From assembly GCA_030834765.1 (NCBI GenBank), contig JAUQXG010000523.1, positions 1-15,337 of the forward strand: a stretch of 15,337 bases of DNA, written 5' to 3'. The notes below the pieces were generated by a model. It worked only from the letters and a program-made list of their open reading frames with translations, had not been told where the DNA came from and did not search any database. Made by a program: the position numbers and the translations under genes. Position 1 is the first letter of the stretch. Each line of letters begins with the position of its first letter. Shown piece after piece: positions 2,412 through 13,522 of the stretch. Source of the stretch: Lutispora sp. Lineage in GTDB: Bacteria > Bacillota > Clostridia > Lutisporales > Lutisporaceae.

Positions 2412-3839
2412 ATGAAAAGGCGGCATAAATCTGGTTTTACTCTAGTTGAAATAATAGTTTCAATCGCTTTGCTTGCCATAATAGCACTTTTTATGCTTCC
2501 CATGTCTGCATATTCAATAAAGTTTTCGAAATGGAATGATATAAGGCTTACAGCCATGAATCTTGCTTATTCCCAGACAGAATGGCTGAAAACCCTAGAC
2601 TATAAAACCGAGCTAGGCCTCAACCAAACAGGTTATTCTCCTCAGGGAACAGTGAAAAGCAACCTTTATATGAATAAAACAGGCTCTGATCCACTTATCA
2701 TTGAAGGAATAGAATATAGGCTTCTAACAAGCATCTATTGGGAAAGTGCTGAATCAACCAATGGAGATTTCGTAGCAAATGCTACAAAAAAATTAGATGT
2801 CACTGTAATAGCGAAAGATCCTTTATTAGGAACTCAAAAAACCTATTCTGTTATGGGCTCTCTTGTAGCATTTGAGGGTGAAAGAATACCTTCAAGCAAT
2901 GTACCATTAAAGGTAAGGGTCATAAGCGGTGAAAATTTTGATAAACCGGCAAAAAATGTAAAGGTTATAATAAATAATATAAGCAATACATTGATAACCT
3001 TCGGACTGACAGATAATGAAGGAAAGGTTTATTTTACGGAGCTTATAAATGCCAAGTATAATGTGATTCCTGACAGCTGGCAGGGTGGAGATATGATGTC
3101 AAGACCAACTGGTATCACAGGCACAGGAAATGATCAATCATGGAGATTTAATGAACTTATTGAAATAAAAGCTTTAGATGCGGGCAAGGATTTTGTAGAA
3201 CAGGTGGTTTCTGTAGATTATCCTGGTTATATAGTAATCCCAAGTTACCCATCGGCATTGATGGATAATACGATAATAACTATGAAACCTAAATATACTC
3301 CACCAGAAGGAGTTATGATGGAATTAAATATGAACACAAATTTAACCAAGCTTATTTCAAAAAAGATATGGAGAGCTTGGGAATATGATTATACGATGAA
3401 ACGAAGCAATGATGTATATTATTTTGCAGATGCAAACAATGGTAATCTATGGGATGGAAAGTTCCCTTATATGGATGGAGCCATAACAAATAGAAATCTT
3501 AAGCTGTCCTTTGGCATGAATACAGGAAGCTTTAAAAAAGAATTAAATGGAACGGTTACATTAGAAATTGAATTTACCTCGGAGATAACAGGTAATATAA
3601 ATGATATGCTCTATACGCTATATGATGGAGCTACAGCTTTGAATATAACAAATCCTATCATAACTCAATCTGTACCAGGTAAAAATAACAAATTCAAAAT
3701 AAACTTAAGTACAAATCCTGCAATTTCAGGAAACAGTCTTAAGTTTGTTATTGATAATGCTGCCGAGGATATAATCAAAAATACTTATGGTATGAAGCTG
3801 GTGCAGGACAGAAACTATTGTGATTTGATATTAAAATAG
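2412..3839 (+). CDS. Large minor pilin (PilV/GspI-like N terminus) with long C-terminal extension, putative tip adhesin
   Basis: The protein has 475 residues, three to four times the usual pilin length. The leader MKRRHKSG ends in Gly8. The mature N terminus FTLVE has Glu+5 and a long hydrophobic helix. Residues 40-155 form a pilin-like head. Residues about 164-222 (VPLKVRV ... TDNEGKVYFTEL) resemble the carboxypeptidase-regulatory-like or transthyretin-like beta-sandwich found in many surface proteins. The remaining 250 residues are aromatic- and Asn-rich beta-type sequence that I do not recognise. The ribosome site AGGAGGG (2399-2405) overlaps the pilD stop. Large C-terminal modules on minor pilins in other systems are often tip-located adhesins, so a surface- or glycan-binding role is plausible but inferred. 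It is the first member of the large V-W-X trio. Confidence 0.85.
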   Translation: MKRRHKSGFTLVEIIVSIALLAIIALFMLPMSAYSIKFSKWNDIRLTAMNLAYSQTEWLKTLDYKTELGLNQTGYSPQGTVKSNLYMNKTGSDPLIIEGIEYRLLTSIYWESAESTNGDFVANATKKLDVTVIAKDPLLGTQKTYSVMGSLVAFEGERIPSSNVPLKVRVISGENFDKPAKNVKVIINNISNTLITFGLTDNEGKVYFTELINAKYNVIPDSWQGGDMMSRPTGITGTGNDQSWRFNELIEIKALDAGKDFVEQVVSVDYPGYIVIPSYPSALMDNTIITMKPKYTPPEGVMMELNMNTNLTKLISKKIWRAWEYDYTMKRSNDVYYFADANNGNLWDGKFPYMDGAITNRNLKLSFGMNTGSFKKELNGTVTLEIEFTSEITGNINDMLYTLYDGATALNITNPIITQSVPGKNNKFKINLSTNPAISGNSLKFVIDNAAEDIIKNTYGMKLVQDRNYCDLILK

Positions 3840-4484: not shown

Positions 4485-6164
4485 GTGAAAAAACTATACA
4501 ATAATAAAGGCATGACACTTCCGTTAGTCCTTATTGTACTTGTTTTTATTACTGTATTGGGCTTTGCAATGCTAAATATGACCAGCACCCAGGCAAGATT
4601 TAATACTGTTGATGAAACAAACAAAAAAGCAATTGAATATGCTGAAGCTGGATATAACGCATACCTTTGGCATTTAAATGATGATGTAAATTATTACAGC
4701 AGACAAGAGAGCATAGATATGCAGAATATAGATATCTCATTTCAGGATGGTTATTATAAGCTAGAGGTCACTAAACCTAGTGATATAGACAGATTTATAA
4801 CTATAAAATCCACTGGATGGACAAAAAGTAACCCTTCAATCAAAAGGACGATAGAAGCAAAAATAAGGAAGAAGCAGTTTGTTCATCATGTTTATGTTAG
4901 CGATAATGAAGGCAGTAACATATGGTGGACTACAGGTGATGAGAGTCATGGTCCTTACCATACAAATGGAGATTTAAGGATTCAGGGACGGCCAGTTTTT
5001 TTTGACACAATTACTTATAATAAAAAGAAAACCTTATATAAAGGCACAGGCTATAATCCTGACTTTAAAGTGACAGATCCTGTACAGCCGCAAAAGGTTG
5101 ACACGTTGGATTTTCCGGCAAGCAATGCCGCTCTGATAGAATGGGCCTCAAAAGATGGAATGTTATTTACAGGAAGAACTTGCATCTATATTGATGGTGA
5201 AAATGTAAAGATAAGAAATAAAAATTCTTCAGAAATAATTACTAAAAGTATAAGCTCCATCAAGAATAAGGTTATTTATGTAGATACCGTAAATGGAAGC
5301 GTAGATAAGTTTAATATCAATTCTGGAAATATTTTTATTTCAGGACAGTTAAATGGAGTTCTCACCATAGCAGCAGCAAATGATATTTTTATTACCTATG
5401 ACGATCCTACTAATTGGTACGATTATGATTCCACAAGACTAACAGATGCAAGCTATATCCCTCCGTCGCCCCCTATGACCTTTAAATGGAAGGATAATAG
5501 AAGTTATTCTTATCCTGAGACAGGAGGGATATCTTATAAAAACACTACTTTTACTCCTTCTTATAAACCTACTGGAAAGAACTATTACATTCGAGATGCA
5601 TCTGGTAAGGATATGCTTGGATTGGTGGCTAATAGAAATATTCTTATAAATCATTATGGCTGGCCCAAGAAAGCGATAAAAACAGATTTGAGTGATAATA
5701 ATTGGAATTTTAAATGGGTTTGGGGTGATTATGGCCAAAATGTTAGGACCTATCTATATAGAGATACTACTTATTATAATATTAAAGTAAATAGTGTTTT
5801 TTATAGTAGCTATAGACCAAGTAGTTCAAATTACTATAATGTTTGGGTGCCAGATGAAAAATGGGGAACTTCAAGTCAAACCTATGATGGGGCGCCTAAA
5901 GAGGTTATGATACATTCAGTGGTATTTGCCGTAAATGGGGGATTTGGTTTTGAAGATTATGATAAGGGTGCCAAAAGGGGTTACATAACCTTGTGGGGAA
6001 ATATCACTCAAAGAATACGATTGGCAGTAGGGTTAATAGAATCTACTGGTTATCTCAAAAAGTATTCACATGATCCAAGAATGTTTTATGACTATCCTCC
6101 CCATATATTAGAGCCTACCAATGTGGGTTGGGAAATACATGAATGGAAAGAAATTAATAATTGA
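4485..6164 (+). CDS. Large PilX/GspK-like minor pilin with long surface domain (559 aa)
   Basis: The GTG at 4485 is chosen because AAAGGAG (4469-4475) lies 9 nt upstream and the leader then reads MKKLYNNKG. An ATG 63 nt further upstream lies inside the previous gene. The mature N terminus MTLPLVLIVLVFITVLG lacks Glu+5, as in the PilX N-terminal/GspK group. The long head (residues about 130-559) is rich in Tyr, Trp and Asn. It carries HGPYHTNGDLRIQG (155-168), a beta-rich NGVLTIAAANDIFIT (290-304), DMLGLVANRNILI (376-388) and a C-terminal ITQRIRLAVGLIESTGYLKK (507-526) followed by DPRMFYDYPPH. These motifs recall a broad class of bacterial pilus-associated surface domains (DUF4900-like), which I recognise only by resemblance. 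GspK-like pilins sit at the very tip, so a large exposed head fits a tip adhesin. The head also has a PPSPP run (326-330) of the kind that needs EF-P. Confidence 0.83.
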   Translation: MKKLYNNKGMTLPLVLIVLVFITVLGFAMLNMTSTQARFNTVDETNKKAIEYAEAGYNAYLWHLNDDVNYYSRQESIDMQNIDISFQDGYYKLEVTKPSDIDRFITIKSTGWTKSNPSIKRTIEAKIRKKQFVHHVYVSDNEGSNIWWTTGDESHGPYHTNGDLRIQGRPVFFDTITYNKKKTLYKGTGYNPDFKVTDPVQPQKVDTLDFPASNAALIEWASKDGMLFTGRTCIYIDGENVKIRNKNSSEIITKSISSIKNKVIYVDTVNGSVDKFNINSGNIFISGQLNGVLTIAAANDIFITYDDPTNWYDYDSTRLTDASYIPPSPPMTFKWKDNRSYSYPETGGISYKNTTFTPSYKPTGKNYYIRDASGKDMLGLVANRNILINHYGWPKKAIKTDLSDNNWNFKWVWGDYGQNVRTYLYRDTTYYNIKVNSVFYSSYRPSSSNYYNVWVPDEKWGTSSQTYDGAPKEVMIHSVVFAVNGGFGFEDYDKGAKRGYITLWGNITQRIRLAVGLIESTGYLKKYSHDPRMFYDYPPHILEPTNVGWEIHEWKEINN

Positions 6165-6184
6165 ACTTAAAAGGAGGTATCCTC

Positions 6185-7249
6185 TTGAGACCATATTCAT
6201 CTTTTAATAAAAATATTATTTCAATTGATTTGGGTTCTTTTGAAATTAAAATGATTGAAGCGAAAGAAAACAAAAATGGGATTCAAGTAAATAAGGCTTT
6301 TTCCTTTAAAACGCCACCTGGTTCATATCAAAATGGCTATATAAAGGATTTTGGTACATTAGCTGCGATGATAAAAGAAGAATTGAAAGATAATAAATTT
6401 CATTCTGGTTTTTGTCATATGAGTATAAAGAGCTCCGCTATTATAAGCAGAGAAGTTTCGTTTCCAGCAGTAAGTGATGCAGAAATTGAAGGTTTGCTTA
6501 AGTATCAACTAAGTGAATATCTTCCAATGGATGCCAGTAAATACATCGTACAGCATAGAATAATTGGGTCGTCTCTGGATGAAAGTAAAGATAAGCTTGT
6601 TGTTATGGTTGTTGCAATACCTAAAGAAATCGTTGATGCACACTATAACTTTTTAATTGCTTTGGGTGTTAAACCAGCTATACTTGATTATCAGTCCAAT
6701 AGTCTATGGAAACTCATGAATTTTACAGACTATATAAACAGAAGCATAACAGTACGGGATAAAACCATTGCTATAGTGGACTTGGGTTATAGCAGTACAA
6801 ATATTACAATAACTAAAAATGGAGTGCTTAATACCAGTAGGGTAATAGAGATAGGCGGGATGCATTTAGATGATCATTCTGAAGATCTTGTTGCAGCAAG
6901 TGCAGAGGATGACTCTACAGAAAGCTTTCTTCTAGAAGAAACTTCAAATAAAAATAAATTCTTAGATCAAAGCAAATATTCAAGGATGGTAGATACCTCT
7001 GTTGAAGGGTTAATGGATAGAATTGAAAAGGTATTTAAATACTATATTTCAAAAGATATGGGTAACGAAATAGACCAAATCCTTATTTACGGAGGAGCAG
7101 CTAGAATTCAAGGTATAGAAAAAACATTTACCAATTATTTAAATATTCCTGCTGCCTTGATAAATGGCGTAGGCAGAGTAAATATTCAGGACGAGCCTGG
7201 AAAATATCTAAATTGCATAAGTGCAATATTAAGGGATGATGGGGTGTAA
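6185..7249 (+). CDS. pilM: Type IV pilus assembly protein PilM, actin-like ATPase
   Basis: PilM is the cytoplasmic actin-fold ATPase that binds the N-terminal tail of PilN and links the platform to the motor ATPases. The TTG at 6185 is chosen because AAGGAGGT (6171-6178) lies 6 nt upstream; an in-frame TTG at 6161 overlaps the previous stop and has no ribosome site. The product has 354 residues, near family size. The actin-fold motifs are visible: phosphate-1 IISIDLGSFEIK (11-22), phosphate-2 AIVDLGYSSTNITI (196-209) and adenosine IYGGAARIQGIE (301-312). The segment SFPAVSDAEIEGLLKYQLSE (92-111) is the conserved region preceding the SHS2-type insert. Residues 229-265 form an acidic, probably flexible insertion. 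The gene is followed with overlap by pilN. Confidence 0.95.
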   Translation: MRPYSSFNKNIISIDLGSFEIKMIEAKENKNGIQVNKAFSFKTPPGSYQNGYIKDFGTLAAMIKEELKDNKFHSGFCHMSIKSSAIISREVSFPAVSDAEIEGLLKYQLSEYLPMDASKYIVQHRIIGSSLDESKDKLVVMVVAIPKEIVDAHYNFLIALGVKPAILDYQSNSLWKLMNFTDYINRSITVRDKTIAIVDLGYSSTNITITKNGVLNTSRVIEIGGMHLDDHSEDLVAASAEDDSTESFLLEETSNKNKFLDQSKYSRMVDTSVEGLMDRIEKVFKYYISKDMGNEIDQILIYGGAARIQGIEKTFTNYLNIPAALINGVGRVNIQDEPGKYLNCISAILRDDGV

Positions 7250-7253
7250 TGAC

Positions 7254-7823
7254 ATGAAGGATTTAAACTTTTTTTCATCCTACAACAAGAAGCAGGAAAA
7301 AGGCATAGATAAGCAAAGCATTCTAAATGTTTTCTTACTGGTCTCTTTTATTGGAATCATATGTTATGGAAGTTATAATTTCTATACTATAAAAAAATTA
7401 AATAGCAATATTTCTTCTATGCAAAATCAAATCACTGTTAAAAAAAATGATCCTAAATATAATGAAATATTAGAAAAGAAAAACAAGATAAAGGACTTAC
7501 GAGATAATATATCAAAGATAATGTCTATTGATAAATATTTAGATGAGCGAGATGTGCTGAATGAATTTCTTCTAAGTGATATTGAAAATAACCTGCCTTC
7601 AAAGGTTTTTTTAAAGTCAATGGTTTTGAATCCTGATATCATAAAGATTGAAGGTAACTCCCAAGATAAGGAGTCTATCGCCCAATTTCAACATAATTTG
7701 ATAGAGCTTGGATTATTTCAGGAAGTATTTATTCCTCAAATTGTTGATAATATTGATTCCTTTAGTTTTATTATGGACATTAAATATAAGGAGGAGCAGG
7801 ATGGAGCTAAAGCTGGGCAATAA
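7254..7823 (+). CDS. pilN: Type IV pilus assembly protein PilN
   Basis: PilN is a single-pass membrane protein that binds PilM through its cytoplasmic tail and PilO through its extracytoplasmic domain. The ATG at 7254 is preferred because GGGGTG (7241-7246) lies 7 nt upstream and because the tail then begins MKDLNFFSSY, the usual PilM-binding start of clostridial PilN (in place of the proteobacterial INLLP form). An earlier in-frame ATG at 7236 lies inside pilM. The product has 189 residues: cytoplasmic tail 1-22, membrane helix 23-42, coiled coil about 45-100, then a small alpha/beta domain with LPSKVFLKSMVLNPDIIKIE (114-133). The 3' end overlaps pilO by 23 nt, which supports coupled translation and equal amounts of the two partners. 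Confidence 0.9.
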   Translation: MKDLNFFSSYNKKQEKGIDKQSILNVFLLVSFIGIICYGSYNFYTIKKLNSNISSMQNQITVKKNDPKYNEILEKKNKIKDLRDNISKIMSIDKYLDERDVLNEFLLSDIENNLPSKVFLKSMVLNPDIIKIEGNSQDKESIAQFQHNLIELGLFQEVFIPQIVDNIDSFSFIMDIKYKEEQDGAKAGQ

Positions 7824-9177
7824 CAAGCATAAAATCAAATTATCCATCAGCAAAAAAGAAAAAAATCTTCTCTTCATATTGGGAATTACAGTTTTATTAT
7901 GGGTTTCTTATCAATATCTCTTTACTCCACAGCAGGCTGATATTGAAAAGCTTACTCAAGAGAAAATTGCTAAGGAAAGTGAGTTGGCGCAGGTAAATAT
8001 AATATTAGCCAGTGAGGCAAAGATCAATAATGAGCTGGAAGGTCTTAGCAAAGAGTTTCTAACAGTATCAAAAAGGTATTTCCCTAAAGCAAATCAGCCT
8101 GAATTGATGCACATGCTAAACGATATCATAGATAATGGTCAATTAAATGTACCAAATATAACCTTTGCTAATCCCCAAAAAATTGAAGAATTGGATTCTG
8201 ACTTGATGGAAACTACAATACCATTTATAGGTACCTATAAGGATTTAAACAATTTCTTTTCACAGATCAGAGATAATCCGAAAAGGTTATTGGTAAGCGC
8301 ACTTTCTCTAGTAAAGGATAAAGATGATATGCTGAGTGGACAAATATCTATAGATGCGTATACCTATGAGAAACAAGGAAATATAAATGAGGGCTATTTT
8401 TATACCAATCCTTTTGTAAGCACTTCAAAGTATAGTCCGTTTAAACCCTTTGAAGGCTATGTAGAGCCAACAAATATACCAGATATTAATTCAAGTTCGG
8501 TAATGCCTGATATGCAGGGAAAAGGGTACTTGATAGATGATATGGAAGAAGACAATGTATACTTCCTAGGCACTAGCGCTGATGTTACTGGCAAGGTAGG
8601 AAAAATAAATATTCCTAAGTTCGGCAAAAGCGCTATCAGAGCAGAATACTTCATATCAACAGGCTATAAGGCGGAAAGAGCCTTTGTAGTGTTGGATGAT
8701 AAGAACATAACTTTAAAATATCCTCCTGACTCTATAGGCATATGGGCTTATGCATACGGCTATTCGCCTGCTACCATAGGTTTTAGATTCAAAGATCCAA
8801 ACGGAAGAAATATTGATATGGAGATAAAAAAGGGTGTGGATTGGAATGACTGGGAATACATATATGCAACTCCTCCACAGGATTTAAATGTTTATCCTTT
8901 AAAACTTGATAGAATATATTTCGAATTAGGAGCCAACAGGGACGATTATTCAGTGATGCTTTTTGATAGAATAGAATGCTCTTATTCTCTGGATGAAAAC
9001 TCTAACAGCGGTAATACAAGTTCCACATTCTATATTGTAAAGTCTGGAGATACTTTGACATCAATAAGTGAGAATTTTTATGGCACTGAATTAGGATACA
9101 CTAGAATAATGAAGGAAAATGGACTTGAACCAGGCTCTAAGTTGATACCAGGAGAAATTTTAGTAATATCTAAATAA
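7801..9177 (+). CDS. pilO: PilO-like pilus assembly protein fused to a beta-sandwich domain and a C-terminal LysM domain
   Basis: The ATG at 7801 is set by AAGGAGGAG, starting at 7788 and ending just upstream. The product has 458 residues, about twice a normal PilO. Residues 1-21 are cytoplasmic and basic, 22-40 a membrane helix, about 44-90 a coiled coil, and 93-190 the PilO-type ferredoxin-like domain (PFIGTYKDLNNFFSQIRDNP at 141-160 is typical). A Pro/Ser/Asn-rich linker follows (195-240). Residues about 243-396 look like a jelly-roll or CBM-like fold (YLIDDMEEDN at 243-252, AIRAEYFISTGYK at 278-290, IGIWAYAYGYSPATIGFRF at 312-330, DRIECSYSLDE at 389-399). After an Asn/Ser linker comes a clear LysM domain: FYIVKSGDTLTSISENFYG (410-428) to GEILVIS (451-457). 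LysM binds peptidoglycan, so this PilO could tie the membrane platform to the wall. That job is inferred from domain content. Confidence 0.88.
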   Translation: MELKLGNNKHKIKLSISKKEKNLLFILGITVLLWVSYQYLFTPQQADIEKLTQEKIAKESELAQVNIILASEAKINNELEGLSKEFLTVSKRYFPKANQPELMHMLNDIIDNGQLNVPNITFANPQKIEELDSDLMETTIPFIGTYKDLNNFFSQIRDNPKRLLVSALSLVKDKDDMLSGQISIDAYTYEKQGNINEGYFYTNPFVSTSKYSPFKPFEGYVEPTNIPDINSSSVMPDMQGKGYLIDDMEEDNVYFLGTSADVTGKVGKINIPKFGKSAIRAEYFISTGYKAERAFVVLDDKNITLKYPPDSIGIWAYAYGYSPATIGFRFKDPNGRNIDMEIKKGVDWNDWEYIYATPPQDLNVYPLKLDRIYFELGANRDDYSVMLFDRIECSYSLDENSNSGNTSSTFYIVKSGDTLTSISENFYGTELGYTRIMKENGLEPGSKLIPGEILVISK

Positions 9178-9190
9178 CGGGGAAAGGGTG

Positions 9191-11116
9191 ATGTACTTGA
9201 AAGGAAATAATAGATATATTATCATTGTGTTTGCATTATTATTTATCCTAATGCTTTTTCCCAAAATAAATATATATGCAGCGGATGATACAGGATATGA
9301 TGATGGTTATGCATACGGATTACTAGATGGGATATTAGATGGAAGTGATGATGCAGCTTCGGGAAATAAGAAAGTAATCGTAGTTCCAAAAGACAGTGAA
9401 ATAGAAGAAATATATAGTTTAAGTAAAGAGACTACTACATACAAAGCTAATTTTAAAAGAGGATATAAAGTTGGATATAGAGAAGGCTATATAAAAGGTT
9501 ATGATAATAAAAACAGTGAAGAAGATAAAAAAACGCCAATACAATATGCTGAGTCCTTGGCGGAAAAAATTGGAGCTATAAATGGCCATATAGATTATTA
9601 TGCAGGCAGAGCAAATAAATGGACATATAATCTACCCACCACCACAACTATTATTGAAATCTATGAGTTGCTAAAAGAACCAAATGATTACAAAAATGCT
9701 TTCATCGTGGCTTATAAAAATAAATATAAAATAGGGTATGAACAAGGATATGCTGATGCAAAGTTTAAACCGATATTGGCTGCTACAACACAAGGGAGCA
9801 AGGATGGAGAATACTTTGGATCTATGCTAGGAGCTAATTATGGCAGGTTGGACTATTATAAAAGTCTTACCATAGACTGGGAGAGGGGTATTCCTACAGA
9901 TAGTGAAATTAAAAGCACATATTTGCTGGGAAATGACAATAAAGATTATTCTGATGCTTTTATTGCTGGCTTTAAAAAATCCTATAATGAAAAATATGAA
10001 GAAGCCTACAGGGCTGCAAATACCAGCTATAATGCGCTATTATATGAAAAGGGCTATGCCCATGGCAAGGATATAGGCACACGAAAGGGAGAAACGTCAG
10101 CAAAAATTGACCTTGCTCTTGAAAGAAGCAGTGATCTAGCCAGGTATTTCTTTTCAGACAGCGATATAATAAATGAATATAAGCTATTTAATGAACATAA
10201 AAAATACAGTGATGGATTTATAAGCGGATATAAAGAAGGAATGAGAATAGGATACTTAACTACATATCAGCAATCAAGCTTTGATGATTTTTCCAAGAAG
10301 CTTCAGACTGCAATACTTCCTATTAGTGGAGGAGAAATAAAGTCTGGAGATGGAAGATTAGTAATAAGCACAGAGCAAGGTGTATTTTATAATGATATAG
10401 TAGTTTCAATAGATAGAATATTGAATAATAGCGGTATTTTTAAAATGCCCTCTGCTGACAGATTTACAAAAGCCTCTGACTTATATTCCGTAAGATTGGC
10501 TAACCCAACCAATGCAGTGGATAAAGATAAAATGGTAAAACTAACCTTTGAATATTATGGTTCCTATTTAACTGCAGGAATATATAAATACACCAATAAT
10601 GTTTGGACATATATGCCAAGTGATGTAGATGAGAAAAGCATAACAACATCTATTAGTGCAAAATCTTTAAATAATAAAACAGATATATATGCAGTTTTCA
10701 TAGACAACAAAGCAACTACACCTTATGACTTAAGAGGACATTGGGCAAAAAATGAGATTGTCACTTATATAAGAAGGGGCATAGTTGGTGTGAATATTGA
10801 CAATAACTTTTTACCAAACAATTATACATCTAAAGCTCAGTTTCTTAGCTATGTAAATAAGATATATAATACAAATTATACTGCAGTCGATATGGGAGTT
10901 ACTGTATTGAATGCCTTAGATATGAGTAAACCAGCAACTTATAATGAAGTAGAAGTTATCATGAGAAAGGCAACAAATGATAAAAACTTTACTTGGAAAT
11001 ATATAGCTGATAAAATTACTAAAAATAAAGATAGATATACGCTGAGTTATAATTCAATGGATAATTATATAACTCAAGCGGAGGCTATATATATGCTTTA
11101 CTACTTGACTGAATAA
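9191..11116 (+). CDS. Secreted SLH-domain surface protein with four GY-rich repeats, encoded within the pilus operon
   Basis: I do not recognise this as a named protein. The start is ATG 9191 or TTG 9197; AAAGGGTGAT (9183-9192) is better spaced for the TTG. A basic N terminus and hydrophobic run end at NIYA before AADD, a typical signal peptide. Four repeats of about 70-80 residues follow (nt 9296-10270). Each has G-rich GYxxGYxxG turns and a core like IPTDSEIKSTYLL...DYSDAFIAGFK. Next, a region (about nt 10307-10700) with GGEIKSGDGRLVIS looks like a ZU5-type beta-sandwich. The C terminus has a good SLH repeat, DLRGHWAKNEIVTYIRRGI (nt 10727-10783) with FLPNNYTSKAQFL, and a degenerate second one ending YITQAEAIYMLYYL. 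SLH repeats bind secondary wall polymers. It starts 13 nt after pilO, so it is probably co-transcribed. A wall-side partner or guide for the pilus is a reasonable inference but unproven. Confidence 0.8.
   Translation: MYLKGNNRYIIIVFALLFILMLFPKINIYAADDTGYDDGYAYGLLDGILDGSDDAASGNKKVIVVPKDSEIEEIYSLSKETTTYKANFKRGYKVGYREGYIKGYDNKNSEEDKKTPIQYAESLAEKIGAINGHIDYYAGRANKWTYNLPTTTTIIEIYELLKEPNDYKNAFIVAYKNKYKIGYEQGYADAKFKPILAATTQGSKDGEYFGSMLGANYGRLDYYKSLTIDWERGIPTDSEIKSTYLLGNDNKDYSDAFIAGFKKSYNEKYEEAYRAANTSYNALLYEKGYAHGKDIGTRKGETSAKIDLALERSSDLARYFFSDSDIINEYKLFNEHKKYSDGFISGYKEGMRIGYLTTYQQSSFDDFSKKLQTAILPISGGEIKSGDGRLVISTEQGVFYNDIVVSIDRILNNSGIFKMPSADRFTKASDLYSVRLANPTNAVDKDKMVKLTFEYYGSYLTAGIYKYTNNVWTYMPSDVDEKSITTSISAKSLNNKTDIYAVFIDNKATTPYDLRGHWAKNEIVTYIRRGIVGVNIDNNFLPNNYTSKAQFLSYVNKIYNTNYTAVDMGVTVLNALDMSKPATYNEVEVIMRKATNDKNFTWKYIADKITKNKDRYTLSYNSMDNYITQAEAIYMLYYLTE
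9296..10270 (+). repeat. Four diverged tandem protein repeats (70-80 aa each) in the SLH protein
   Basis: The repeats lie at about nt 9296-9502, 9545-9766, 9794-10030 and 10052-10270. The core aligns as VPKDSEIEEIYSL, LPTTTTIIEIYEL, IPTDSEIKSTYLL and FFSDSDIINEYKL. Each core is followed by a Y-x(2,3)-F-x2-GYK/GFK segment and further GY-x-x-GY turns (for example RGYKVGYREGYIKGY in unit 1). Repeats 2 and 3 also share a DYY motif before the core (HIDYY, RLDYY). The copies are diverged at the DNA level, so this is an old duplication, not a recent expansion. Confidence 0.8.
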
Positions 11117-11181
11117 AAATTATAAATAAAATGAGGTAGATATAAATATTTTTACATATTCTATAAAAAATTAAAGGAATT

Positions 11182-11211
11182 ATGCCAAGCACAGTGAATA
11201 TATAGTATAAT
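11182..11211 (+). promoter_or_regulatory. Candidate sigma-A promoter before the second minor-pilin set
   Basis: In the 129-nt gap after the SLH gene, a perfect TATAAT (11206-11211) lies 18 nt after ATGCCA (11182-11187, 4 of 6 matches to TTGACA). It could drive the second minor-pilin set and comFB separately from the first half of the locus. No terminator is seen between the two halves, so read-through is also likely. Confidence 0.4.
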
Positions 11212-11245
11212 TGGATAAGTCTTCTATATTTAAATTGGTGAAAAC

Positions 11246-11614
11246 ATGAAAAATGTAAAAACTTATAATTCAGGATTTACAATTATAGAGCTTTTGTTTG
11301 CTCTTACAATTTTCTCTATATTATTCATTGCTGTCTCTTCACTATTAATGACCACAATTAAGATTTCTGAAACTTCTAAGCAACAATATGATGCGTTGAT
11401 TCTGGCTCAAAATCACTTGGAAATGATTAAGGCTTCTAAGGAGGTTTTAAAAGCTAAGGAAAGGTATCAATATGGAATTTATGATATTGAAGTAGATATC
11501 CAAGACATTCCTGAATATGGTGGAAAGTTATATAAGGTTATTATAGAGGTATCAGCATATAATCGGATTTTAGAAAAGATTGAGGGACTTAAAATTGTAG
11601 AAGTATGGGAGTAG
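11246..11614 (+). CDS. Minor pilin, PilV/GspI-like (compact)
   Basis: This prepilin has 122 residues with a 10-residue leader ending in SG. The mature start FTIIE has Glu+5, followed by LLFALTIFSILFIAVSSLL. The segment QQYDALILAQNHLEMIKASK (51-70) after the helix is typical of PilV/GspI pilins. The ribosome site is weak (GGTGA at 11237-11241, 4 nt before the ATG). It opens a second minor-pilin set that parallels the earlier large trio but with normal-sized heads. The next gene starts 5 nt after its stop. Confidence 0.85.
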   Translation: MKNVKTYNSGFTIIELLFALTIFSILFIAVSSLLMTTIKISETSKQQYDALILAQNHLEMIKASKEVLKAKERYQYGIYDIEVDIQDIPEYGGKLYKVIIEVSAYNRILEKIEGLKIVEVWE

Positions 11615-11618
11615 CATT

Positions 11619-12185
11619 GTGTGCAAAATTATGCAGAATAAAAAAGGCGCAGTTTTAGTATTTGTTTTATTAATCGGTTCTGTAATGATTGTGACAGGCA
11701 CAGCTTTATTATCTACAGCAGCCATGAATTACAAAATGAAGAGATTAAACAGCCAAGTGAAGCATGTTTTCTATACATGTGAGGCTGTAATGGAAGAAGC
11801 ATATATCATGTCAGTAGAGTATATAGAAGATGCATTAACCTATGCAAGGGGAAAAGAACAAGCTAGCTTTGAAAAATCATATATTAATTTCCTAAAAGGA
11901 AATTGTATGGACTTACCTCCTTCAGGTGGAATTGTAGGAATTTTAAAAGATAAATCCAGGTATATATTATATAAGGATAACTGTTATAGAATAGATTCAA
12001 AGCTGCTAGAGAAAATAGGTTTTTATCAATTAGAAATCATATCTACCTATTCAGAAAACAATATTGAAAAACAATTGAAGCTGATTTGCGAAATAAATAC
12101 TCCTGAAATGAATGATAACTTTCCCTTTTTAGATATCGTTGCCGAAGATTTGATAGATATTGTTGATTGGAAAGTAGAAAGGTAG
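11619..12185 (+). CDS. PilX-like minor pilin or pilus-associated protein (compact)
   Basis: The start is GTG at 11619 with GGGAG (11607-11611) 7 nt upstream, overlapping the end of the preceding gene. The product has 188 residues. The leader ends in NKKG, followed by AVLVFVLLIGSVMIVTGTALL, which has no Glu+5, as in PilX N-terminal/GspK proteins. The post-helix segment carries YTCEAVMEEAY, which resembles the AEA(G) motif of PilX-like proteins (compare YAEAGYNAYL in the large paralogue at nt 4638-4667). Cysteines at residues 49, 91 and 117 could allow a disulfide. It is paralogous in type, but not in head domain, to the 559-aa protein of the first set. Confidence 0.75.
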   Translation: MCKIMQNKKGAVLVFVLLIGSVMIVTGTALLSTAAMNYKMKRLNSQVKHVFYTCEAVMEEAYIMSVEYIEDALTYARGKEQASFEKSYINFLKGNCMDLPPSGGIVGILKDKSRYILYKDNCYRIDSKLLEKIGFYQLEIISTYSENNIEKQLKLICEINTPEMNDNFPFLDIVAEDLIDIVDWKVER

Positions 12186-12190
12186 TTTCG

Positions 12191-12769
12191 ATGATTTGCT
12201 TTAAAAATAGAATGAATGGTTTACAAAATAATGGCTTCACTTTAATTGAGATAATCACTTCCTTGGCCTTATTTGGTGTTATTATTACCCTAATACTTTC
12301 AACAATGAATAGCAGCATTAATATAATGTCTAGGGTTGAAAAAGGAGTAGAAATTCAGCAGCAGGCTCAATTTATATTTAACTTTTTAGAAGAAAAGGTC
12401 ATGGAATCTACAGGCTTGATATATCTAGAAGACAGACAAGGTAAAAGTAAGATGAATTCAAATGAAAAAATTTTTATAAAGAAAATGATTTTTAAGAATA
12501 AAGTTGATAGGCTGGACAAAGGATATATATTTCAACTTATAAAAGACCCAGAATACGATTTTTATAACTTGAAATATGGCATAGGATTATCTGGCAGCGC
12601 AACAGTAGAGGTAGGCAATTATATAGAAAATATTGAAGTAGAGCCTATACCTTTTGATAAAAAATATAATGAAGCTGATGGAATATTAATTAGAATTAAC
12701 TTTGTCTTTGATAAATACAGCACAAAGGTAGAAAACATCTTTCATTACAGAAACTCCAGTGGGGTATAG
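12191..12769 (+). CDS. Minor pilin, PilW/GspJ-like (compact set)
   Basis: The ATG at 12191 is chosen because AAAGG (12178-12182) lies 8 nt upstream, next to the stop of the previous gene. The product has 192 residues: leader MICFKNRMNGLQNNG (15), then FTLIE with Glu+5 and a hydrophobic helix ending near NSSINIMS. EIQQQAQFIFNFLEEKVMES (54-73) is the post-helix segment typical of PilW/GspJ. The rest is a beta-rich head with many Lys, Asp and Glu residues. It is the counterpart of the 204-aa PilW-like protein in the first set. Confidence 0.83.
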   Translation: MICFKNRMNGLQNNGFTLIEIITSLALFGVIITLILSTMNSSINIMSRVEKGVEIQQQAQFIFNFLEEKVMESTGLIYLEDRQGKSKMNSNEKIFIKKMIFKNKVDRLDKGYIFQLIKDPEYDFYNLKYGIGLSGSATVEVGNYIENIEVEPIPFDKKYNEADGILIRINFVFDKYSTKVENIFHYRNSSGV

Positions 12770-12772
12770 GAT

Positions 12773-13228
12773 TTGAATAAAATGAAAGGTCAGAAAGGCT
12801 TTACATTAATAGAGCTTATAGTTGTTCTCGCTGCATTAGCAATGCTTTTGTCTTTAGGAGTACCTAGAATGCAAAAAAGCTCCAGCGAACTTCTTGCAAT
12901 AAGCAAGACCTTGAGAGATGAAATAAGATATGCAAGGACTATGAAAATGACAGAAGGCAAAAATTATAGGTTAGTTTTTCAAGAGCATAGCTATATTCTT
13001 TCGGAAGGACCAAAGAGAATAAAAGAAGTTCTGATTGGTCAAGATTTCGCTATCAATCAAAACTTCACAGGTAACGAAATTTATTTCTCTTTTAATGGAG
13101 CTCCCCTATCAAATGGAGGAACAATTACAATAACAAATAAGGTTAGTAAAAAGTATTGTAAAATCACAGTAGTACCTGCAACAGGAAGAATTTTATTAAT
13201 AAATAAAATATTTAGCGGAAATGAATAA
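12773..13228 (+). CDS. Minor pilin, FimT/GspH-like
   Basis: The product has 151 residues if it starts at TTG 12773 (GGGG at 12761-12764, 8 nt upstream); ATG 12782 is an alternative that shortens the leader to six residues. The leader MNKMKGQKG is followed by FTLIE with Glu+5 and a hydrophobic helix. SKTLRDEIRYARTMKMTEGK (45-64) is the hallmark of FimT/GspH pilins. VVPATGRI near the C terminus also fits, since many FimT-like proteins have a G-x-I/V pattern there. In other bacteria FimT-type pilins help initiate the fibre, and some bind DNA during uptake. A DNA-uptake role is only a possibility here, made slightly more interesting by the comFB gene next door. Confidence 0.85.
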   Translation: MNKMKGQKGFTLIELIVVLAALAMLLSLGVPRMQKSSSELLAISKTLRDEIRYARTMKMTEGKNYRLVFQEHSYILSEGPKRIKEVLIGQDFAINQNFTGNEIYFSFNGAPLSNGGTITITNKVSKKYCKITVVPATGRILLINKIFSGNE

Positions 13229-13240
13229 GGGAGGTTTATT

Positions 13241-13522
13241 ATGTATAAACTAAGAAACTTTATGGAGGAAGCTGTTATCCATAAAACCAACGATGTACTA
13301 AAAATAATGAATATCTGTAAATGTGAAAAATGTAAATTAGATATAATAGCAATTGCACTAAATGATTTACCTTCAAAGTATGTTGTAACACAAATAGGTG
13401 AATTATATATGAAAGTTGGTGAATTAGCTCAGCAATTTGAAGTTGACATTGAAACTGCAATTGTAAAAGCGGTAGTTCAAGTTTCTAAAAATCCAAAGCA
13501 TGATGTAAACCAATCGATCTAA
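13241..13522 (+). CDS. comFB: ComFB family protein (late competence development protein)
   Basis: The protein has 93 residues, close to the family length of about 98 in Bacillus subtilis. The signature is clear: NFMEEAV (6-12), the cysteine group C26-x-C28-x2-C31-x2-D34, then LNDLPSKYVVT (40-50). The cysteines bind zinc in the B. subtilis homologue. From memory, ComFB-type proteins in cyanobacteria have been described as c-di-GMP receptors affecting pili, competence or cell size; whether this one binds the nucleotide is not shown by sequence. AAGGGAGGT (13227-13235) lies 5 nt before the ATG and overlaps the end of the minor-pilin gene, so it is the last gene of the pilus operon. No membrane segment or signal peptide is present, so it is cytoplasmic. 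Confidence 0.9.
   Translation: MYKLRNFMEEAVIHKTNDVLKIMNICKCEKCKLDIIAIALNDLPSKYVVTQIGELYMKVGELAQQFEVDIETAIVKAVVQVSKNPKHDVNQSI

Follow-up and report, generated by a model that had tools for sequence, protein, structure and literature searches.

The GYSLH gene and its pilus locus

A 15,337-nt stretch of DNA from a host nearest to Lutispora (Lutisporaceae), called the window here, carries a type IV pilus (T4P) locus in which the open reading frame (ORF) at 9191..11116 on the forward strand encodes a protein of 641 amino acids (aa), with an ATG at 9191 and a stop at 11116. The ORF, family alignments, and T4P synteny define it as an S-layer homology (SLH)-anchored protein with GX3 repeats, and we use the working name GYSLH for the family that includes it. 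The initial annotation had the ORF begin 13 nt after pilO, between pilO and a minor-pilin set, and the coordinates agree: the start codon, preceded by GGGGAAAGGGTG, lies 13 nt past the pilO stop (9177), and three of the four genes that follow have N_methyl matches. Matches to PilM, PilN, and N_methyl place the locus in the type IVa class; the Pfam PilO match was slightly below the cut-off. A promoter and terminator scan around the gene gave no terminator-like site within 9000 to 11400 and 18 promoter-like sites, which is near chance (mean of 14.6 in shuffled sequence).

The N terminus of the window protein is basic and hydrophobic and ends in IYA-AD. Judged by eye from the translation, it looks like a Sec signal, and the signal peptide named initially is retained as a putative one at residues 1 to 30 (9191..9280), with cleavage after IYA. 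Next come repeat 1 (residues 33 to 110; 9287..9520), repeat 2 (residues 116 to 194; 9536..9772), repeat 3 (residues 198 to 280; 9782..10030), and repeat 4 (residues 285 to 368; 10043..10294, where a repeat-only profile also matches). The four are homologous to one another in six of six profile-profile comparisons (E values of 4e-13 to 3e-29; overall probability range of 97.9 to 99.8): with hhalign, repeat 1 matched repeats 2, 3, and 4 at probabilities of 98.7, 97.9, and 98.9, repeat 2 matched repeats 3 and 4 at 99.8 and 99.4, and repeat 3 matched repeat 4 at 99.7. The predicted count of four thus held, at lengths of 78 to 84 residues where 70 to 80 had been claimed.

The repeats had been described as containing GYxxGYxxG turns. 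In GYSLH sequences, both glycine pairs and Tyr/Phe pairs were overrepresented at spacings of i,i+4 (z = 50 for glycine, 36 for Tyr/Phe) and i,i+8 (z = 28 and 23, respectively), and 32 GYSLH sequences contained 489 G-x3-G pairs versus 77 expected (z = 50). Three of the 32 members matched Yae1_N, a family with GX3 helices. Because of the 4-residue periodicity of glycine and aromatic residues and these Yae1_N matches, we read the repeats as helical; the strict period suggests glycine-faced helices instead of turns. The Yae1/Lto1 and FliH GX3 repeat proteins, which are cytosolic and have unrelated roles, share with GYSLH a glycine at every fourth residue and match it weakly, but the match is motif-like and does not indicate membership. 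A relation to FliH suggested by NCBIfam (E = 6e-7) was rejected, as its 28.9 bits compare with a cut-off of 192 and are explained by the GX3 periodicity. Among 80 sequences, some of them copies of one protein under two identifiers, 36 have four repeats, 33 have three, 10 have two, and 1 has five. The longest GYSLH (895 aa, five repeats) is encoded on the reverse strand of L248 (genome G750), at 4802-7486 in reverse-complement numbering.

Residues 372 to 508 (10304..10714) form a middle domain that is conserved in the family and has no known relatives. No Pfam family rose above noise in the 12 members scanned (best E = 0.05), and no PDB chain matched (best E = 0.81); the ZU5-like region proposed here, with neither a ZU5 nor any other match in these searches, was abandoned. 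Big_5 domains were found in 2 of 32 GYSLH members.

SLH wall anchors typically combine three SLH repeats with TRAE-type motifs for binding. The SLH region of the window protein (residues 509 to 641; 10715..11113) departs from this pattern, with a worn first SLH (TSKAQ), a truncated second, and a third bearing ITQAE. An SLH region such as was claimed for the protein is clear across the family, where all 32 alignment members matched SLH at E ≤ 0.01 (best, 4.6e-30); in the window protein, the match at residues 513 to 551 scored 20.7 bits against a Pfam cut-off of 20.8. The first motif has TR or SR in 20 of 32 members (SK in the window protein) and the third in 30 of 32 (TQ in the window protein); in the second SLH, TY or SY replaces TR in all 31 GYSLH rows that have it. 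The family profile matches the solved SLH region of the S-layer protein Sap (PDB 3pyw; E = 2e-12). GYSLH thus shares a homologous SLH region with SLH surface proteins such as Sap and, from the available text of PMC6081394, the Paenibacillus alvei SLH protein; it differs from them in its place at pil loci, its TY/SY second SLH, and the worn state of the window copy.

The pilO gene upstream (7801..9177, forward strand; ATG at 7801 likely, by eye) encodes a PilO core, a jelly-roll-like domain (8536..8991) that is conserved in GYSLH-adjacent PilO, and a C-terminal LysM domain (9025..9174). It was identified by its LysM match and the subthreshold PilO match. The LysM domain matched Pfam at E = 1.7e-7 and also matched solved LysM chains, which bears out the PilO-LysM fusion reported initially. 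A profile of 18 PilO members matched LysM chains and the solved PilO 3jc8 (E = 2.6e-5), which we take to be the Myxococcus protein. All 18 PilO proteins selected for that alignment carry LysM; eight other GYSLH loci have a jelly-roll PilO without it, so LysM is not required. In 10 PilO members, the jelly-roll domain gave weak matches to Lyase_N in two (best E = 1.5e-5) and to FlaA in one (E = 0.003); that of the window PilO matched neither. LysM also occurs on PilO without a recognized jelly-roll and without GYSLH, in G279 and at L115:4692-5771 and L253:4636-5559, the latter two being other mixes of wall-binding parts.

The window reads, in order, pilC (cut by the window edge), pilA, pilD, modular pilins, pilM, pilN, pilO, GYSLH, prepilin-like genes, comFB, and efp. 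We take pilC, pilA, pilD, and efp to be such by eye or from recall; the platform and prepilin peptidase genes, recognized by eye, are conserved in relatives. The forward-strand genes pilM (6161..7249; Pfam PilM_2, E = 1.4e-30) and pilN (7236..7823; Pfam PilN, E = 1.4e-10) precede pilO. The four genes after GYSLH span 11246..13228 on the same strand; three have Pfam N_methyl (prepilin) matches, and one (11619-12185) is PilX/ComG-like by eye and has no such match. A ComFB-family gene (13241-13522; PF10719, E = 7.9e-23) closes the pil cluster; a ComFB relative was found at 10 of 16 GYSLH loci, some of which stop short of that place. At 2412-3839 lies a modular prepilin of 475 aa with weak SdrD_B (E = 0.003) and bMG3-like (E = 0.08) matches.

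Distribution of GYSLH at T4P loci

GYSLH proteins occur at T4P loci of Lutispora, the Tissierellales, and the Natronincola family. A profile scan of genome contigs gave 24 loci, 16 of which (L031 to L046) hold the family; in the other eight the match is confined to the SLH region or its vicinity (that of L048 begins at residue 433). Wherever upstream sequence is present, pilO comes immediately before GYSLH (14 of 14 loci; L036 and L040 begin at contig ends). The GYSLH frame is broken in two relatives, L045:9983-12027 (Tissierella sp. P1) and L039:396-2384, by real loss or sequencing error. Database matches to GYSLH were named in 2 of 18 cases, and only as “S-layer homology domain-containing protein.”

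At a threshold of E ≤ 1e-30, GYSLH was found in 52 of 150 Tissierellales genomes, and the PilM type of this locus was found in 89, the PilM scan being taken as the same draw of 150. Both were present in 49 genomes, GYSLH only in 3, PilM only in 40, and neither in 58 (Fisher P = 1.7e-11, uncorrected for relatedness). In all 45 genomes with both on one contig, GYSLH lies downstream of PilM on the same strand, at a distance of 1.95 to 2.44 kb in 43 and about 4.0 kb in 2; in six of the remaining seven GYSLH genomes the match lies less than 1.8 kb from the contig start, and in the seventh (G858) the edge was unchecked. Among 20 genomes of the Natronincola/Serpentinicella family, GYSLH is next after pilO in 15 and a PilO-SLH fusion is found in 3; of the other two, G739 has PilO without GYSLH and G735 gave no match. 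The co-occurrence with pilM, pilN, and pilO anticipated for other Clostridia is therefore seen in these two groups, and it upholds the initial view of a wall-side module tied to such loci; full-length homologs do not lie mostly away from T4P genes, which would have spoken against that view. An apparent in-frame TAG run in pilM of several genomes proved unreal in the two compared, L249 and L254, whose ORFs are intact and whose TAGs coincide with the stop codon or directly follow it.

This synteny bears on whether an ordinary SLH protein has come to lie in the operon by chance. SLH proteins are common, and a profile that includes the SLH part matched 202 of 391 genomes of the class, most listed matches spanning that part only. 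Against chance stand the uniform arrangement in 45 of 45 same-contig genomes and a matching position in each of three taxonomic groups; the Tissierellales synteny refutes it, and we consider it extremely improbable.

Elsewhere in the class the arrangement was rare. In T4P regions of Clostridia chosen from PilM matches, a GYSLH profile match followed pilO in 1 of 40 (L087), where three of the 40 (L088, L089, and L113) stop right after pilO and cannot show one. The idea of a GYSLH equivalent beside other clostridial PilO was rejected on this count. The repeat unit searched alone, a check suggested at the outset, gave a divided result: among 348 genomes of the phylum, 9 matched, 2 of them through GYSLH (the host genome and G083), but in G474 and G434 the matches lie away from T4P genes, and 5 weak matches, L143 among them, fall in one family (f107). 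A later profile homolog search, which scored the 7999 candidates with the most words in common, gave 19 proteins, of which three matched by SLH alone, and says little on members with other anchors.

The GX3-repeat proteins away from T4P genes (L137:843-1784, reverse strand; L138:1-624, forward strand) look secreted. Weaker ones are found at L139:7226-8002, L140:6907-7653, L141:6758-7618, and L142:255-1013 (reverse strand). Pfam detected Cu_amine_oxidN1 in the L137 and L139 proteins, one tested case per family, and the others look alike by eye. A small gene with a LysM-like start adjoins the repeat protein in L137 and L138, with a Pfam LysM match only in L137.

PilO-SLH fusions and jelly-roll PilO

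In G326, a genome of the Natronincola family, the gene after pilN encodes a PilO that continues into an SLH region of the GYSLH family. Searching for homologs of this protein yielded 19 PilO-SLH fusions, query included, of 390 to 411 aa; named sources are Serpentinicella alkaliphila, Natronincola ferrireducens, N. peptidivorans, and Geosporobacter subterraneus, and the fusion-bearing genomes within the 20 surveyed are G326, G746, and G747. Profiles detected the PilO core and SLH in all 19 and the jelly-roll, LysM, repeats, and middle domain in none. None of the three fused loci has a separate GYSLH. In G326, no repeat-bearing match was found among the 3 of 26 candidates scored; of the three fused genomes, that profile search covered G326 and not G746 or G747.

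An SLH tree of 89 rows (47 GYSLH, 19 fusion, and 23 labeled generic) united all 47 GYSLH and 19 fusion rows with one “generic” row, L023, in a single node (support, 99/94); L023 is really the C-terminal piece of a GYSLH protein (G021). Within that GYSLH clade the fusions form one clade (99/96), which sits beside the two-repeat GYSLH proteins of L177, L178, and L181 (100/99). In the second SLH of the fusions, too, TR is replaced by TY or SY (19 of 19). We infer that a single deletion across adjacent pilO and GYSLH genes would yield such a fusion. Because the fused lineage kept the SLH region and put it onto PilO, we read the separate GYSLH as a protein that would hold PilO to the wall.

The fusions also bear on whether GYSLH is instead a surface adhesin, an S-layer decoration, or a fibre retention factor that is encoded in the pil operon but never touches the assembly base. 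SLH proteins are often surface proteins, and the Big_5 domains of two members would suit such a role. We judge it unlikely, as an SLH region of the same family lies within PilO in 19 proteins, an anchor on the inner-membrane subcomplex, and as GYSLH was found beside only one PilO type at the loci tabulated.

That table covers the 86 of 92 examined loci with recognized PilM and PilO; six (L036, L038, L039, L040, L102, and L104) were dropped because PilM or PilO was not recognized. Three of the 86 are fusions. GYSLH was present at 31 of 35 loci with a jelly-roll PilO and at 0 of 48 with another nonfused PilO (0 of 45 once the three loci that stop after pilO are set aside). L255, with its pilO split over two frames, went into the count as a locus with no jelly-roll. 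Over the 83 nonfused loci the association has a Fisher P of 9e-19 (4e-18 without the three), a value that overstates independence because the loci were hand-picked, many are related, and the jelly-roll profile was built from GYSLH-neighbor PilO.

A proposed wall tether for PilM-PilN-PilO

No secretin was found in 51 genomes from the host's family and class relatives (a set that does not extend to the Tissierellales or Natronincola families at large); the host's own genome is 87% complete, and the search found rings in 6 of 14 control genomes. The window GYSLH itself had no secretin-type match in Pfam and PDB searches. Omp85 was absent from 22 of 22 genomes. A full-length match to PF04230 (E = 1.1e-49) marks a CsaB-type gene in the host genome, and such a gene was found in 18 of 22 genomes; PF04230 also holds other pyruvyltransferases, so the match supports a pyruvylated polymer without proving one. 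An envelope with these features, 0 of 51 for secretin, 0 of 22 for Omp85, and a CsaB-type gene, fits a wall tether.

We propose, with a probability of roughly 65% on sequence grounds, that GYSLH is a dedicated tether by which the PilM-PilN-PilO complex of the type IVa pilus machine is linked to the wall in monoderm Clostridia. The protein would be secreted, and its C-terminal SLH region, from its homology to known SLH domains, would bind a pyruvylated wall polymer. The two to five helical GX3 repeats and the middle domain would extend inward to grasp PilO on its extracytoplasmic side, likeliest by its jelly-roll, while the LysM domain of PilO would grip peptidoglycan in parallel. The PilM-PilN-PilO-PilC base could thereby be fixed below the wall opening and bear the force of retraction. 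Jelly-roll, repeats, and middle domain would form a noncovalent bridge, which fusion would have made unnecessary. A more specific version, which we hold tentatively and at slightly less than even odds, is a load path particular to monoderms in which the PilO jelly-roll docks on an SLH-anchored GX3 strap whose repeats act as an adjustable spacer, one lineage having hard-wired SLH to PilO by a deletion spanning the two adjacent genes, after which it would no longer need the jelly-roll, LysM, repeats, or middle domain.

The initial annotation offered a conduit, a guide ring, or an anchor that replaces the secretin. Of these, the anchor is favored by the PilO-SLH fusions. A conduit or ring, in which the repeats would oligomerize to form a tube or collar that lets the fibre pass the wall and S-layer, has no support beyond location, namely, the position adjoining pilO; helical GX3 repeats could pack as oligomers, and a repeat number of two to five could suit wall thickness. 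No ring former appeared among the PDB sequence matches of GYSLH, and the 19 fusions keep SLH without repeats, so a conduit made of repeats is not needed there. Moreover, 9 of the 51 secretin-free genomes (G003, G004, G007, G040, G041, G045, G046, G048, and G050) have T4P regions without GYSLH, those of G004 and G048 ending after pilO. We regard a conduit as quite unlikely. As to replacing the secretin, the absence of secretins is in keeping with that claim, but GYSLH is not a general substitute, because 52 of the 83 nonfused loci lack it. It is an optional part in one branch of T4P machines.

Several observations weigh against the proposed tether. Of those 52 loci (3 of which end right after pilO), four have a jelly-roll PilO and yet no GYSLH (L188, L250, L252, and L263), and the GYSLH label requires at least five gains or losses on the PilO-core tree; therefore, the machine can work without GYSLH. 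The link between jelly-roll and GYSLH may largely reflect shared ancestry and profile bias. At the threshold used, 40 of the 89 Tissierellales genomes with PilM lack GYSLH, and in the two genomes with the longer spacing GYSLH is about 2 kb farther down; in G768, the one read, pilin-like genes come before it. The GX3 repeats are also present away from T4P loci (G474 and G434). The window protein, with its worn SLH, may bind the wall weakly. The PilO-core tree does not group the fusions with any one GYSLH-bearing PilO (deep support, 48/77). We dropped that tree as support for fusion in place, as its deep nodes are unresolved and speak neither for nor against it.

In diderm type IVa pilus machines, TsaP, the AMIN domain of PilQ, and PilP provide the wall and secretin links, TsaP binding the wall through LysM. 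A tethering GYSLH would resemble these in being a wall-binding protein tied to the basal machinery, but no secretin or outer-membrane marker was found in the genomes tested here; Pfam and PDB searches were the only probes of a relation. TsaP and PilP are named in the available text of PMC13319060, which describes a PilO-LysM protein by archaellum genes of Chloroflexota. There, too, LysM sits on PilO and a scaffold bridging peptidoglycan is proposed, but the machine and phylum differ, and the main text as available lacks the term S-layer homology. The monoderm PilO of Streptococcus sanguinis and others, proposed to be bifunctional (Pelicic 2019; PMC6916266), is similar in being large and having an extra C-terminal part; the text available names no SLH protein, PilO LysM, or PilO-SLH fusion, whereas the anchor here is a separate gene or a fusion. 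That paper, in the same text, poses how pili cross peptidoglycan as an open question and terms a suggested role for monoderm PilO in anchoring to or crossing the wall “entirely speculative.” The main text of PMC10191384 (presumably Pelicic 2023), as available, has neither the words peptidoglycan nor cell wall, and the word S-layer is absent from the accessible text of Imam 2011 (PMC3244431). In open-license PMC text, including what is available of PMC5865380, PMC5817068, and PMC5491611, no description of the GYSLH family or of PilO-SLH was found, which is weak evidence of absence and agrees with the suggestion that the family may be undescribed.

An SLH-anchored family encoded beside pilO in some Gram-positive bacteria thus probably straps the pilus machine to the wall, and in relatives its presumed wall-binding end is fused to PilO itself. 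If true, the load path would be a monoderm counterpart of the PilP-PilQ-TsaP connection. The proposed tether would make testable the monoderm PilO role called speculative in the available text of PMC6916266. Together, the GYSLH family, the constancy of its position behind pilO, and the fusions offer a concrete candidate, with PilO as its named partner, for how a T4P is held in and passes a thick wall without a secretin, and they suggest a likely job for a family that otherwise carries only a generic SLH name.

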